From Niastella populi (GTDB lineage Bacteria > Bacteroidota > Bacteroidia > Chitinophagales > Chitinophagaceae), in NCBI RefSeq assembly GCF_002078015.1, contig NZ_LWBP01000188.1, positions 310,001 through 374,000 on the forward strand: a stretch of 64,000 nucleotides of DNA, given 5' to 3'. Positions 3,967 to 43,672 of the stretch are shown here, one piece after another. The notes beneath the pieces were generated by a model. It was not told where the DNA came from and did not search any database. It saw only the letters and a program-made list of their open reading frames with translations. The position numbers were made by a program, and so were the translations under genes. How positions within the stretch are numbered: position 1 is the stretch's first letter; the number at the start of each line of letters is the position of its first letter.

Positions 3967-4185
3967 GAATACAGGAGCAAATTACCGGTTGTCAAGTCGT
4001 ATCTCGCAATATTTCGGTTGCCGGGTTCACAGTTTTTTGCAAACTGCAGTTTTAACCAGTTTCACCATTGACAGTTTTAAATGTTATTCGAACAATTTTA
4101 ATGTCAGCCATGTTATTGGCTACCGGTTTGTCTGTTGTCTGAATAAGCAACTGGTTTTCAGTCGCTGGTGGTTTGTTTTTTATTA

Positions 4186-4213
4186 ACCATTCACCATTGA
4201 CCATTGACCGATT
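4186..4213 (+). repeat. Heptamer array (ACCATTG type)
   Basis: Units ACCATTC, ACCATTG, ACCATTG and a decayed ACCGATT, period 7. The same word family flanks the IVP gene at 16.2-16.7 kb and lies inside hemC. Confidence 0.8.
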
Positions 4214-4246
4214 CTGACAGTTTCATGACCTCCGGGCCAATAAAGC

Positions 4247-16229: not shown

Positions 16230-16234
16230 AAAAA

Positions 16235-16715
16235 GGTCAATGGTGAATGGTCAATGGTCAATTGTTAAGCTATTTTCTATCAATTAGTGATGTTAGAATT
16301 TTGAAGCTTCTGACCATTGAATCACCGAGTTTATTTAATTCTAAGTTATTTAAATATTCTAATTCTTTTGCTAAATCTAAAGCCGCATCGATTTCAATGA
16401 CAGATCCTCTGGCAATTTCGTAATATCTTTTTCGTTCCTGATCAGGTTTTCTGGAAGCACCTTCTGAAATATTCAGATGTACTGATAGCGCCGCTCTTCT
16501 AATTTGCGAAATCATTCCAAGCTTTTCTTCAATTGGAAATGATTTGGTTATTTTATAACATTCGAAAACAAAGAATTTCGAAATGGTATAGAGGTCCATT
16601 TTTTGATGGTTAAGAGTCAGGAACATGTTAATGGTTTTAAAGTTTAAACAAGTGCCTACTTATCTGAGCCTACCATTAATGTTTTTTATTGACCATTCAC
16701 CATTGACCATTCACG
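16235..16715 (-). mobile_element. IVP cassette 1: four-helix-bundle gene between inverted heptamer arrays
   Basis: Left array 16235-16262 (GGTCAAT, GGTGAAT, GGTCAAT, GGTCAAT) and right array 16688-16715 (ATTGACC, ATTCACC, ATTGACC, ATTCACG) each hold four heptamers. Bases 16235-16255 and 16688-16708 are perfect 21-bp inverted repeats. The cassette fills the hemB-hemL gap: the right array overlaps the hemB stop codon and the left array ends 5 bp from the hemL start. Calling it mobile is an inference from this layout. Confidence 0.6.
16270..16599 (-). CDS. Four helix bundle protein, 23S-rRNA intervening-sequence (S23/IVP) family
   Basis: Small protein of 109 residues (start at ATG 16599; an ATG at 16626 adds 9 residues that look non-coding). 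Family features: ITKSFPIEEKLGMISQIRRAALSVHLNISEGASRK (about 17-52), the conserved QIRRAA and N-I-x-EG, then YYEIARGSVIEIDAALDLAKELEYL. Members were first found inside intervening sequences of 23S rRNA genes, and the Avd protein of diversity-generating retroelements shares the fold; no biochemical role is generally agreed. Here there is no rRNA gene. The gene is AT-richer than hemB and hemL and is bracketed by inverted heptamer arrays. Confidence 0.9.
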   Translation of the reverse strand: MDLYTISKFFVFECYKITKSFPIEEKLGMISQIRRAALSVHLNISEGASRKPDQERKRYYEIARGSVIEIDAALDLAKELEYLNNLELNKLGDSMVRSFKILTSLIDRK

Positions 16716-19268: not shown

Positions 19269-20309
19269 TTACGCCCCGATGCTTTGTTTTCCATATTCCT
19301 TAACCGCATCTACAAATGCTCTTGCATGGTCAACGGGTACGTTAGGCAATATTCCATGGCCAAGGTTGGCGATATGGCGTTGACCGCCAAAATCGTTCAG
19401 CATTTTCTTCACCTCTTTTTGAATTTGAGGAATGGGGGATAACAATTTTGCCGGGTCGAAATTCCCCTGCAGGGTAACGTTAGGGCCGGCAAACTGGCGC
19501 GCCATGGCCGGTGTAATACACCAGTCGATACCGAGTCCATGAGCGCCGGTAGCGGCCATTGGTTGTAATGAGTGCCAGGCGCCTTTGGCGAAGATGATGG
19601 TAGCTACTTCATCTTTCAATGCGGCAACTATTTGTCGAATATATTGTAAGGAGAAATTCTCGAAATCATCCGGGCTCAGCAGGCCGCCCCAGCTATCGAA
19701 GATCTGTACAACATCTACCCCCGCTTTTACCTGGCCTTTCAGGTATGCGATGGTAGTGTCGGTGATCATTTGTAACAGGCGGTGGGCTGTTTCGGGTTGA
19801 GTGTAACAGAAGATCTTGGCTTCGTCGAACGTTTTTGAACCTTTGCCCTGTACCATATAGCACAACAACGTCCAGGGGGCGCCGGCAAAACCAATTAAGG
19901 GAACACGGCCGTTCAGTTCTTTTTTAATAAGCTTTATGGCGTCAAACACGTAGTGCAGCGTTTCATTTACATCGGCTACCCTCACGCGGTTGAGGTCGTT
20001 GATATTTTTGATGGGGTCGGGTAACAACGGTCCCTTGCTTTCTACCAGTTGTACTTCGAGCCCCATGGCTTGTGGCACTACCAGAATATCAGAGAAGAGG
20101 ATGGCAGCGTCAACGCCAACGATATCTACGGGTTGAATGGTTATTTCGCAGGCCAGTTCGGGTGTTTGACAGCGTTCAAAGAAACCGTACTTCTCGCGTA
20201 AGACCATGTACTCGGGTAAGTAACGGCCTGCCTGGCGCATCATCCATACGGGGGGGCGTTCTACCTGTTCTCCTTTCAGTGTTCTTAATAAAAGATCGTT
20301 TTGCAGCAT
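19269..20309 (-). CDS. hemE: Uroporphyrinogen decarboxylase
   Basis: Removes four carboxyls from uroporphyrinogen III to give coproporphyrinogen III. The 346 residues have the family signature near the N-terminus ([17 protein letters not shown], about 18-34), the second signature [19 protein letters not shown] (about 139-157), [14 protein letters not shown] and the C-terminal [11 protein letters not shown]. It sits 44 bp downstream of hemD with no signal between them, so the two are cotranscribed. Confidence 0.98.
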
Positions 20310-20353: not shown

Positions 20354-21055
20354 CTACTTTTTAAAAAATTGAAACATTTTATTTACCAGCTCATCCTTGC
20401 CTGGCCGGTCAGATTCAATGATCGTATTGCTCGAAAAAGATTTTATGGCGTCGGCTGTTGTTTGCCCAATGGCAAACAACACGGTGTCGGGCGGTACGGC
20501 ATTCGCATAAAAGAAGCTTTGCACGGCGCTGGGGCTGTAAAATAAAATACCATCATACGCTTTTTCTATTTTATGGGGCGTGCTGATGGTATGATAAACG
20601 ATCACTTCCTGCACCGTTATTCCGTTCTGCCGCAGTTTGCCGGGCAGCTCTTCACGGCGCTGGTCGCCACAGAAAAAAACGACCTGTTTTAAGCTTTTAT
20701 CGTTGATCATTTTATCGGCCAGCTCCGAAGCGTTGTTGCCGATGGTATGTATCGATTGCTCGCCAAAGTATTTGGCCGCGAGTTGACGGGTGGTGTGCCC
20801 TATGCAGAAGATCTTCCAGTTTGGCGTAAGGCCATTTATATAAGCCGCCACGGTATTCACCGCATTCATGCTGGTGAATACAACTGCAGCGGGTTGCTTT
20901 AATGCTTTGCCTATCTCTTCTTTGATGCCCGATGTTTGAATAGGAGTGGTATCGATAAATGATACGATATCGATACCGATATCTTTTGCCTTGGCAGCTT
21001 CAAGCAAAGCTTTTTCCAGGGGCCGCGTGCTTAATATGGCAATCCTATTTGGCAT
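20354..21055 (-). CDS. hemD: Uroporphyrinogen-III synthase
   Basis: Cyclises hydroxymethylbilane with inversion of ring D. With ATG 21055 the protein has 233 residues and begins [18 protein letters not shown], matching the family; upstream in-frame codons lie in hemC sequence. It overlaps the hemC end by 11 bp, the usual coupling of hemC and hemD. Sequence is poorly conserved in this family; [32 protein letters not shown] and [17 protein letters not shown] are recognisable landmarks. Confidence 0.92.
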
Positions 21056-22004
21056 GCTGTATCTTATCGGCAATAGCCTGTCCGCCATTTTGTAAAAGTT
21101 CTTTGGCGGAAATAACACCCAGGCCGTTGCTATTGTTGATGGCGATAGTTTTTTCGATGCTGGCTTTTTCTTTCCCGTCTAACGACAAAATATTTCCTTC
21201 AAAATGTACTTCATCGTTAACGATGGTTGCCAGTGCGCTGATGGGGGTTGAACAACCGCCCAGCAATGCCCGCAGGAAATCTCTTTCTATGGCGGTGCAC
21301 AATGCTGTATGGGCATCGTTGAATGGCTGGCAGGCTTCGAAGGAATAGGGATCGTTGGTGCGGCAGGCAACGACAATAGCGCCCTGTGCAGGTGCAGGCA
21401 GCATCCAGTCGAGCTCTATTGATCTTTCCGGCCGCAGGCCAATACGTTCCAGTCCGGCGGCTGCGAAAATAGCGCCGTTCCAGTGGCTGCCGGCCAGTTT
21501 TTGTAAGCGGGTATTTACATTACCGCGCAGGTTTTCGATGGTATGGCTGGGATAGCGGTTCAACCATTGCGCTATGCGGCGAATACTGCTGGTGGCAATG
21601 GTCAATGGTGAATGGTCAATGGTGAGTGGTGAATGGCTCGCGCTGTTTCCGGGCCCGCCAATATTTGCAGGCAGTTCGCCCTTGTATACCAACAGGTCTT
21701 TATAGGAAGCTCTCTTTAATACTGCAGCGGTTACAATTCCTTTGGGTAACTGAGTGGGCACATCTTTCATCGAGTGAACGGCAATGTCGATGCGTTCGTT
21801 GAGCAGGGCAACATCCAGGCTGCGGGTAAAAATGCCCTGTACGCCCATTTCGTACAAAGGTGTTTTGAGGTCAATATCACCTTCACTTTTTATGTATACC
21901 AGTTCTGCGGCAAACCCGTGTTGGGTTAACAGGTTTTTTACCTGGGTGGCCTGCCATACGGCGAGCTGGCTTTCCCTGGTGCCTATTCGAATCACTTTAT
22001 TCAT
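21045..22004 (-). CDS. hemC: Hydroxymethylbilane synthase (porphobilinogen deaminase) with a repeat-encoded loop
   Basis: Polymerises four porphobilinogens. ATG 22004 gives MNKVIRIGTRESQLAVWQA, the standard start; the frame runs further upstream through repeat DNA but that part is not protein-like. The 319 residues carry HSMKDVPT (77-84), SSIRR (139-143), LRGNVNTRL (159-167) and the dipyrromethane-cofactor cysteine C251 (LLGGCSTP). Residues 124-136 read [13 protein letters not shown], a direct protein repeat of period 7 encoded by six DNA heptamers (21594-21635) of the intergenic type. It lies just before the strand leading to the TSSIRR active-site motif. Confidence 0.97.
   Translation of the reverse strand: MNKVIRIGTRESQLAVWQATQVKNLLTQHGFAAELVYIKSEGDIDLKTPLYEMGVQGIFTRSLDVALLNERIDIAVHSMKDVPTQLPKGIVTAAVLKRASYKDLLVYKGELPANIGGPGNSASHSPLTIDHSPLTIATSSIRRIAQWLNRYPSHTIENLRGNVNTRLQKLAGSHWNGAIFAAAGLERIGLRPERSIELDWMLPAPAQGAIVVACRTNDPYSFEACQPFNDAHTALCTAIERDFLRALLGGCSTPISALATIVNDEVHFEGNILSLDGKEKASIEKTIAINNSNGLGVISAKELLQNGGQAIADKIQHAK
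21594..21635 (-). repeat. In-frame heptamer array inside hemC
   Basis: Six units on the plus strand: GGCAATG, GTCAATG, GTGAATG, GTCAATG, GTGAGTG, GTGAATG. The total of 42 bp is 14 codons, so the frame holds. This is the same word family as the arrays of IVP cassette 1. Confidence 0.9.
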
Positions 22005-22040: not shown

Positions 22041-22191
22041 CGAAACGGCAAACGAGAAACGTGAAAAGGAAAATCGGTTATTTCCTGCTGAAAATTGCCG
22101 GCAGGCCTTACCAGGTTTTGAGCCCGGCAATTGTTCGGGCTTCCCTGGAATACCAGGTTTGCCGTTTGCCGGCTGCCGTTTCCCGTTAATT
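22041..22191 (-). repeat. Inverted heptamer arrays and nested hairpins between hemA and hemC
   Basis: Left array 22041-22075: CGAAACG, GCAAACG, AGAAACG, TGAAAAG, GAAAATC. Right array 22157-22184: GTTTGCC, GTTTGCC, GGCTGCC, GTTTCCC, then GTTAATT over the hemA stop codon. Between them lie a 9-bp perfect stem (AATTGCCGG / CCGGCAATT) and an AGCCCG / CGGGCT stem. The whole 180-bp gap could fold into one branched structure in the operon mRNA. Confidence 0.75.
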
Positions 22192-23424
22192 CGTGGGCGC
22201 AATGAACTCATTGATGGCTTCAATGTAATAGCAGCCGCGCTGGTTGCGCTGGCGCATTTTGAAAGCCATGCCATTGATCACCCGTTGTATTCTCTCGTCG
22301 GCATTTATAGTTTGGCACGCAGCTAATTCGGGCGAAAGTTGAATATAAGATGGAAAGGTCTGGATCTCTTTCAGTTTTATTTTTACGGCTTTGAACACCG
22401 GAACATGCTTGCGCATTTCGAACCACTCGAGGAACTCGTCGATATGTTCGCGAATGATGGTCCAGGCTTTAGGCACTTCGGCTTCCCGCATTTGCAGGGT
22501 TTCATCTTTTAATTTCGACAGTTCATCAACGTTCACCAGGTGCACGTTAGGCAGCTCCTGGGCGCTTTCTTCCACGTTGAAGGGAACCGACAGGTCGATG
22601 ATGAGCTTTTCGCCTTTGCCTTCGAGGTGGGTTCTTTTTATTGTGGGTTCTACCGAATTGGTAGCAACCAGAATTATTTCAGACTCCTCAATTTTTTGCG
22701 CCAGCTCGGTAAGGGGGGCATGATGCAGGTCGAGCTCTTCAGCCAGCTGAGCGGCTTTGTCGTGGGTGCGGTTAATGAGCGTAATGTGGTCGGCATCGAG
22801 ATAATCGACCAGGTTCTTGCAGGTATTGCGGCCTATCTTTCCAACTCCCAGTAACAGGATCTTTTTGTTGGCAGCGTCTGCAACTTTTTCCCTGATATAC
22901 TGAACCGCAGCAAAGGAAACCGAAACAGTTCCGCCGCTGAGGCTGGTTTGGTTCTTAATTGCTTTGGAAGATTGCAGAACGCAGTTTACGAGGCGCTCCA
23001 TGAAGGAATCGGTAAAACCGTGCTCTTTGCTGAATTTTACAGCCGTTTTTATTTGTCCTACTATTTCGTAATCACCTAAGATCTGAGAGTCAAGACCGGC
23101 GGCCACGGAGAACAGGTGTTCAATGGCGGCGATGCCTTTCTTAACGTATGCAAGTTGGGTGAAAGTTTCTTTTGTTCCTTCGGTTTGGGTGCAGAGGAGG
23201 TTGATCAGTTGATCGGCACTTTCGGCAAAGCCGTAAATTTCGGTACGGTTGCAGGTGCTTAAAACAAATAACTCATGCAAACCAAACTGGGGGGCTTGGG
23301 TAAGTAGGGTAGCGTATTGATCATTACTTACTGCAAATTGGCCTCGTATCGCAGCATCGGTCTTTTTGTAATTGATCCCGGCTATGAAAAATTTTGTAAT
23401 ATCCTTGGTACTGTTTCCGTGCAT
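22186..23424 (-). CDS. hemA: Glutamyl-tRNA reductase
   Basis: Reduces glutamyl-tRNA to glutamate-1-semialdehyde, the committed step of C5 heme synthesis. ATG 23424 is preferred over an upstream in-frame Met at 23463, because that one lies on the candidate promoter. The 412 residues contain the nucleophile C58 in VLSTCNRTEIY, the NADPH-binding LLGVGKIGRNTCKNL (about 180-195) and the C-terminal dimerisation helix region ending in MRQRNQRGCYYIEA. It is the first gene of the hemA-C-D-E-F-B-L unit. Confidence 0.97.
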   Translation of the reverse strand: MHGNSTKDITKFFIAGINYKKTDAAIRGQFAVSNDQYATLLTQAPQFGLHELFVLSTCNRTEIYGFAESADQLINLLCTQTEGTKETFTQLAYVKKGIAAIEHLFSVAAGLDSQILGDYEIVGQIKTAVKFSKEHGFTDSFMERLVNCVLQSSKAIKNQTSLSGGTVSVSFAAVQYIREKVADAANKKILLLGVGKIGRNTCKNLVDYLDADHITLINRTHDKAAQLAEELDLHHAPLTELAQKIEESEIILVATNSVEPTIKRTHLEGKGEKLIIDLSVPFNVEESAQELPNVHLVNVDELSKLKDETLQMREAEVPKAWTIIREHIDEFLEWFEMRKHVPVFKAVKIKLKEIQTFPSYIQLSPELAACQTINADERIQRVINGMAFKMRQRNQRGCYYIEAINEFIAPTN

Positions 23425-26572: not shown

Positions 26573-26938
26573 GAATACAGCTGAAAGCGAATACAAATAC
26601 AGCTTCAAGCTGCAAGCCATAAGCTGTAAGTGAATACAAATACAGCTTCAAGCTGCAAGCCATAAGCTGAAAGCGAATACAAATACAGCTTCAAGCTGCA
26701 AGCCATAAGCTGCAAGTGAATACAAATATAGCTTCAAGCTGCAAGCCATAAGCTGTAAGTGAATACAAATACAGCTTCAAGCTGCAAGCTGCAAGCTGTA
26801 AGTGAATACAAATACAGCTTCAAACTGCAAGCCATAAGCTGTAAGCGAATACAAATACAGCTTCAAGCTGCAAGCCATAAGCTGCAAGTGAATACAAATA
26901 CAGGCGAAAGCCTAAAGCCTAAAGCCGAAAGGCAAAAG
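26573..26938 (+). repeat. 43-bp tandem repeat (about 7.3 copies) with a heptamer tail
   Basis: Units start with GAATACAAATAC at 26589, 26632, 26675, 26718, 26761, 26804, 26847 and, truncated, 26890; the spacing is exactly 43 bp each time. A partial unit stands at 26573. Within a unit the sub-word AAGCTGC/AAGCCAT/AAGCTGT repeats every 7 bp. The tail 26904-26938 is five plain heptamers (GCGAAAG, CCTAAAG, CCTAAAG, CCGAAAG, GCAAAAG). The array starts 4 bp after hemJ and fills the 415-bp gap to the convergent hemN. No coding is supported here. Confidence 0.95.
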
Positions 26939-43499: not shown

Positions 43500-43595
43500 G
43501 TAGTGATGTTATTATTTTAGATAGAAAATTAGCCAATTAGATAATTTGATGGCGGTTTCAGGGGTGAATGGTTCAATCAATTGACGATAGGCAGA

Positions 43596-43672
43596 CAGTT
43601 CACAGTTCATAGTTCACAGTTCATAGTTCATAGTTCACAGTTCACAGTTCATAGTTCATAGTTGGCAGTTCC
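43596..43672 (+). repeat. Heptamer array (CAGTTCA/TAGTTCA type), 11 units
   Basis: Eleven units mixing CAGTTCA and TAGTTCA, ending TAGTTGG, CAGTTCC; after 43672 the pattern drifts into CGGTCCC, CGGTTCT. It fills much of the 279-bp gap between the S9 peptidase start and the ABC exporter end. A short octamer run lies at about 43524-43548. Confidence 0.9.

Follow-up and report, generated by a model that had tools for sequence, protein, structure and literature searches.

How a repeat of the kind that usually lies between genes comes to form a stretch of a functioning protein is the question raised by hemC in the 64-kb stretch of DNA analysed here (hereafter the window), in which six copies of a heptamer are read in frame within the gene. 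HemC is essential in this organism, as is established for haem synthesis. The gene, its repeat and its neighbours, of which hemA and the frames in the hemD and hemE positions were named from sequence and gene order, are arranged as follows.

19269-20309, in the cluster with hemC: open reading frame in the hemE position
20354-21055, in the cluster with hemC: open reading frame in the hemD position
21045-22004 including the stop codon, minus strand: hemC, porphobilinogen deaminase / hydroxymethylbilane synthase, 319 amino acids, intact
21596-21637, minus strand: six heptamers of the word AATGGTS (ACCATTS on the coding strand), encoding HemC residues 124-136; the 3' arm of the element
21638-21679, minus strand: 5' half of the extended HemC loop, about ELPANIGGPGNSAS, delimited by the in-genus alignment and the loop table; non-repetitive in the window
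22186-23424, in the cluster with hemC: hemA

The Pfam domains PF01379 and PF03900 were found in the window protein, D81 and C251 fall in invariant columns, as expected of the catalytic Asp and the cofactor-binding Cys, and the structures 1PDA and 1AH5 in the PDB were matched by sequence and by fold, with a TM score of 0.85 between the HemC model and 1AH5. Judged by these domains, the two residues and the modelled fold, the gene encodes a porphobilinogen deaminase. A single HemC match was found in the 8.6-Mb genome, in agreement with the original prediction of a single-copy enzyme.

On the plus strand, positions 21596-21637 read CAATGGT CAATGGT GAATGGT CAATGGT GAGTGGT GAATGGC, with a period-7 score of 18/21. 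Presence of the array and its in-frame reading in hemC were observed directly, as predicted, although the array had been placed two bases off, at 21594-21635. Residues 124-136 are its translation and stand immediately N-terminal to ATSSIRR, where a repeat peptide had been announced just before TSSIRR. The accompanying arithmetic was also correct, as three heptamers make 21 bp and seven codons. Since 7 mod 3 is 1, an array runs through all three frames in turn, so that any entry frame yields one cyclic heptapeptide per word and strand. A 20-base probe from the array, with up to three mismatches, matched 10 places within the window, where 100 shuffles gave an expectation of 0.00, and AATGGTSAATGGTSAATGGT, with up to one mismatch, gave 81+73 matches in the whole genome against 1+0 for the reversed control. 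In relatives, the region matching 21638-21679 is either a 5' arm (a VNGEW-type array) or other sequence, and a pair of inverted arms is often present, whereas the window gene retains the 3' arm only. No RNA hairpin was found in the window's own hemC loop (folding z = +1.05), and the reading of this loop as an mRNA hairpin was rejected on that value.

In the AlphaFold2 model, computed from 59 sequences (the window HemC and its relatives), pLDDT has a mean of 88, and residues 111-130, which sit between strands 103-107 and 135-137, average about 48-50. A second low-pLDDT stretch, residues 43-55, coincides with the active-site flap, known to be flexible in this enzyme (PMC3949521). The model shows a low-confidence, disordered-looking loop, and the array sits in this tolerant, apparently disordered segment; the idea that a repeat-born loop is tolerated held up.

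The loop, defined as the segment between KDLLV and ATSSIRR, was compared in 123 Chitinophagaceae HemC genes and 59 outgroup genes, nearly all of the latter from Flavobacteriia. Its length is 16-56 residues in the family, most commonly 17, against 13-18 in the outgroup; it is likewise short in 22 loci from other Bacteroidia families, and at this point the window protein exceeds E. coli PBGD by 14 residues. Conservation of the segment in distant Bacteroidota with non-repeat codons, which the original prediction had named as the sign of ancestral sequence, was not found, and the ancestral-sequence reading of the array was refuted by this outgroup comparison.

A period-7 array, called at 14 or more of 21 matches at lag 7, was found in the loop DNA of 35 of the 123 family genes, whereas control lags 4, 5, 8, 10 and 11 gave 2, 0, 1, 0 and 0 calls in the same loops; lag 7 was called in 2/246 segments elsewhere in these genes and in 0/59 outgroup loops. 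Once duplicates had been removed, an array was present in 32 of 119 loops, against a mean of 0.26 and a maximum of 2 upon shuffling of codon order. Arrays occur in 31 of the 65 loops of at least 20 amino acids and in 1 of the 54 shorter ones; the remaining 34 of the 65 had no period 7 at the threshold used, and arrays therefore leave part of the loop growth unexplained unless decay has erased some of them. Array presence changes at least 19 times on a HemC tree computed with the loop left out, a quick tree with many weak nodes. A heptamer repeat has been placed in frame repeatedly in this one HemC loop across the family.

Recurrence across genera with different words was observed directly, other loop words including GTYGAAA, AATCGTS and AGTGGTG, and the encoded peptides are unrelated between species (HSPLTI, VNGEW, SRKSKVES, NPKPETPNPE). 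In several species the two arms occur together as an inverted pair, with AATGGT... in the 5' and ...ACCATT in the 3' part of the coding strand; paired arms were seen in the hemC loci L012, L011, L029, L006, L015 and L071. Loops from relatives that illustrate this range are given below.

L012 hemC loop: VNGEWSIVNVNTTDDFFTIHHSPLTI, AATGGTS flanking a spacer on both sides
L029 hemC loop: SRKSKVESREMDDLQLSTFDSQLVI, GTCGAAA in both arms
L013 hemC loop: word AATCGTS
L014 hemC loop: word CCCGAAA
L071 hemC loop (Cnuella takakiae): 56 residues

Strong folding within the coding sequence was found for the loops of L012 (z = -7.6) and L029 (z = -5.9), the L012 arms forming a 19-bp stem and those of L029 a similar one; the L006 loop showed no strong hairpin (z = -1.2). 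Other repeat classes use the HemC loop too: a palindrome, CCCGATAGCTATCGGGA, lies within the loop coding sequence of L004 and L008 besides their arrays, and a GC-rich palindrome is nested in the array of L002.

Within the genus, the left junction, GCGAGC followed by the array, is common to the window and three other species (L002, L061 and L062), and since extension and junction are shared with them, the window copy is inherited. Compared with the loops of L061 and the window, that of L062 lacks exactly 21 bp, or three heptamers and seven codons; this L061-L062 difference was the one seven-residue step seen between close relatives and the one clear case of copy-number variation in 7-nt units. 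The L061 array has turned into another word, ACTCACC, and in L003, at 92% identity overall, the loop is down to 16 residues, presumably by deletion. Read from these alignments, the window array extends the ancestral loop and is neither recent nor unique. The insertion proposed in the original prediction accordingly stands relative to the ancestral loop, but not as a single event in this genome, as the array was inherited and is one of many fillings in the family. Its further expectation, that the segment would be absent elsewhere or vary in multiples of seven, was borne out by the absence from distant HemC and by the seven residues missing in L062, but not by loop lengths across species and genera, which are not confined to multiples of 7 and vary freely apart from frame.

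The word in hemC was said to be that of arrays between genes, and AATGGTS was indeed found at three intergenic places in the window, listed here with the gap upstream of hemC.

4182-4214, minus strand: intergenic array of the same word, AATGGTS
16232-16268, plus strand: AATGGTS array adjoining the start of the left-hand gene, reading ACCATT on the sense strand of that gene
16688-16714, minus strand: partner of the preceding array, located at the upstream gene's stop codon
22005-22187, minus strand: hemA-hemC gap, read on the sense strand, with another heptamer pair (TRF 22157-22187)

Two other repeats of the window are unrelated to the hemC word: a 43-bp unit with an AGCTGCA core in 7.6 copies at 26579-26903, and an 11-copy ACAGTTC heptamer array at 43595-43671.

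A 1.25-Mb sample of the genome, window included, was searched with a simple gene caller and yielded 57 period-7 arrays against 0 in a Markov control; 37 period-8 arrays were also present (control 0), and periods 5, 10 and 13 were absent. Forty-six arrays lie between tandem, codirectional genes, 5 between convergent genes and none between divergent genes, although in the sample 18% of all gaps, and 27% of their total length, are divergent. Arrays reading AATGGT on the sense strand start 2-3 nt past the stop codon (3/3), whereas 6 of the 8 that read ACCATT lie closer to the following start and none of them begins 2-3 nt after a stop. In the hemA-hemC gap an AAACGGC/GGCAAAC arm stands directly past the hemA stop and a GTTTGCC-type arm nearer the hemC start, and the polarity of these arms is that found in hemC loops. 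There, AATNGT occupies the 5' half in 12 of 12 species and ACNATT the 3' half in 19 species, L002 being the sole exception. The polarity of the HemC loop matches that of arrays between codirectional genes of the same genome, and this was observed directly; over all words, scored by the sign of G-C, array polarity reached p = 0.067 only. Of 306 frames through intergenic arrays, 148 are open, about half, so that in-frame capture of an array is not improbable.

The word carried in hemC also tends to be the word of the genome. Word labels were assigned by a simple scheme; at least three genome-wide matches of AATGGTS were found in 11/15 genomes with this word in hemC and in 6/31 without it, with a Fisher p of 0.0008 when kinship is ignored, and a kinship-corrected pair test had 3 usable pairs and no power. 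The genome G201, whose hemC word is GTYGAAA, has 18 matches of that word, and GTYGAAA arrays are present in only 4 of 46 genomes. For the L061 word AGTGGTG four genome matches were counted, hemC among them, for which the reversed control is uninformative because the array reads the same backwards in another register.

Internal in-frame arrays were found in four genes of the 1.25-Mb sample, namely hemC, two FecR genes and one glycosyltransferase gene. Six arrays had been called "in gene", and two of them (C187:181288 and C209:161005) were left out and rejected as in-gene arrays, lying at the extreme N-terminus of called genes whose starts are probably wrong. The two FecR paralogues carry their in-frame arrays at one shared inter-domain position. 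HSPLT-type arrays lie between the FecR and FecR_C domains of three FecR anti-sigma proteins (L243:13762-14994, L276:8083-9348 and L243:6075-7238), so that HSPLT was found at the shared position in 3 of the 5 FecR proteins in the sample, with one of the three degenerate. In the glycosyltransferase (L278:12530-13669), the in-frame array is of CAAACAA heptamers (LLKQQITNNKQQTIKLL).

Heptanucleotide-repeat arrays probably accumulate in unconstrained transcribed segments, of which the HemC loop is one. The 42 bp in the window would represent one arm of a heptanucleotide-repeat element class that fills codirectional gaps in this and related genomes, and the HemC loop, being unconstrained and exposed between the KDLLV and ATSS strands, would behave like an intergenic gap. 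Arrays would arise in the loop or arrive there, their first units perhaps copied from elsewhere in the genome or seeded locally, and the stop-free ones would be kept as nearly neutral. They would then turn over by gain and loss of 7-nt units, presumably through slippage, with the reading frame letting only changes of three units (21 bp, seven codons) survive.

A chance resemblance, or an ancestral protein sequence that merely looks repetitive, is extremely improbable, given that the array is absent in outgroups, that shuffles predict 0 matches and that the excess is specific to lag 7; the loop-edge codons of TIAT (ACC ATT GCC ACC) and KGE (AAA GGT GAA) do resemble the word and may have seeded the array. 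That the repeat peptide is functional in HemC, in stability, partner binding or regulation, and is kept by selection was considered quite improbable as well. In its favour, the loop was extended repeatedly in one family only, and array-bearing family genes show no internal stop among the matches listed, but the peptides are unrelated between species and follow the word of the genome, the array was lost in the close relative L003, the model shows disorder, and the frames of intergenic arrays, with 148 of 306 open, are often free of stops anyway.

A non-autonomous mobile cassette of arm, spacer and inverted arm (MITE- or REP-like), transposing into gaps and in frame into hemC and leaving the window copy as a remnant without its 5' arm, is rather unlikely, though several observations speak for it: arms are paired in the six hemC loci named above, polarity is identical in genes and gaps, and the gap between the chorismate mutase and Y1_Tnp genes is arm-spacer-arm in 8/9 genus members with a clean empty site in L325, and a Y1_Tnp (RAYT-like) gene adjoins one cassette in the genus. 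Against transposition, no target-site duplication was readable, no common spacer was seen genome-wide, where array gaps match each other mainly over arm-length stretches, words at the same site differ between species, the left and right arms of one cassette may bear different words (G255, L327), and arrays do not as a rule flank the Y1_Tnp genes found outside the genus. Neutral accumulation with slippage was preferred, though the polarity shared within a protein loop is not explained by neutrality and slippage alone, and the well-matched paired arms of L012 and L029, together with the empty site of L325, also fit insertion of a whole cassette.

The chorismate mutase-Y1_Tnp-aroB operon (L313, L322-L329) is a good locus for studying the origin of such cassettes. 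Its gap cassettes, present in 8 of 9 species and starting at the stop codon, are of two word types, AATGGTS, and AATCGGC on the left with CACGATT on the right; the species with the empty site, L325, is genome G299. The only strong Y1_Tnp (RAYT, PF01797) match in the genome adjoins an array. As a general mobiliser Y1_Tnp/RAYT was not supported, since the sole suggestive neighbour in the genus sits in a conserved operon and other genera gave no clear link, and no common transposon body emerged, as array gaps share mainly arm-length matches, a few sharing longer repeats of other types.

What the locus offers is a series replicated by nature, covering about 15 genera and 35 of the 123 sampled species, in which one essential enzyme has taken up repeat DNA at one site. 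With the same protein and the same position filled by different words, loop tolerance, disorder derived from repeats and the spread of arrays become directly testable, and the 7-nt unit, of which all frames are read and triples preserve frame, makes a clean system for repeat dynamics filtered by frame. A warning also follows for annotation, that period-7 peptides such as HSPLTI and VNGEW in annotated Chitinophagaceae proteins are repeat-born and not domains. It is conceivable, if doubtful, that one transcription-oriented process, hitherto undescribed, adds heptamer arms of species-typed words to transcribed gaps under no constraint, loops inside genes among them; this would continually resupply essential proteins with disordered loop sequence of intergenic-cassette polarity, in a parallel invasion of one loop in many lineages akin to that of Rickettsia palindromic elements.

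Among known systems, the G-rich GGGNATC heptanucleotide repeats of Xanthomonas and Nostoc (Rehm et al. 2015, PMC4692102) come close. Their 7-nt arrays, as here, lie mostly between codirectional genes and rarely between divergent ones, in sense orientation near the stop and antisense near the next start, with frequent inverted pairs in Xanthomonas and copy numbers that differ between relatives. The marks of this class, dispersed head-to-tail 7-nt arrays above chance, codirectional gaps and polarity, were all found in the present genome. The word here, however, is without G-tracts, and arrays are read in frame within a single loop of an essential enzyme, with different words and in many genera, whereas intragenic GGGNATC repeats are rare and were excluded from transcript analysis (PMC4692102). 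TAACTGA direct repeats in Beggiatoaceae, cyanobacteria and Bacteroidetes (MacGregor 2015, PMC4679880) likewise form heptamer arrays that are mostly intergenic and at times lie in ORFs with period-7 peptides (LSVISYQ), with indels in 7-nt steps between relatives and a two-unit set near the end of Flexibacter purC. Their word is another one, those within ORFs for the most part sit at the ends of proteins or belong to hypothetical ones, and no recurrence at one internal loop was reported for them.

Rickettsia palindromic elements (Ogata et al. 2000, 2002, as reviewed in PMC10969869) are in-frame elements in metabolic proteins, reported to be compatible with fold and function. The original prediction had likened the hemC array to them in outcome and not in sequence; the likeness of outcome, an in-frame palindromic insert in an enzyme, stands, with strong folds in the L012 and L029 loops and none in the window copy, and membership fails on sequence. 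By their description (PMC10969869) these elements are about 150 bp, fall into ten sequence families and occur in unrelated genes, whereas here short heptamers in tandem, 42 bp of them in the window, recur at one loop with words specific to the species. Tandem repeats of Borgs create amino-acid repeats (Schoelmerich et al. 2023, PMC9879509), with in-ORF nucleotide repeats becoming disordered segments of rapid turnover as here; their in-ORF units are divisible by three, in contrast to a 7-nt unit of which only triples keep frame, on a bacterial chromosome, in an essential enzyme and often as an inverted pair. A search of the open-access literature turned up neither heptamer arrays in hemC nor the word AATGGTS. 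The intergenic behaviour, polarity included, is known already from the Xanthomonas GGGNATC heptamers; new, as far as the open-access literature tells, is that one and the same internal loop of an essential enzyme has been filled again and again, in many genera and with words that are genome-specific.
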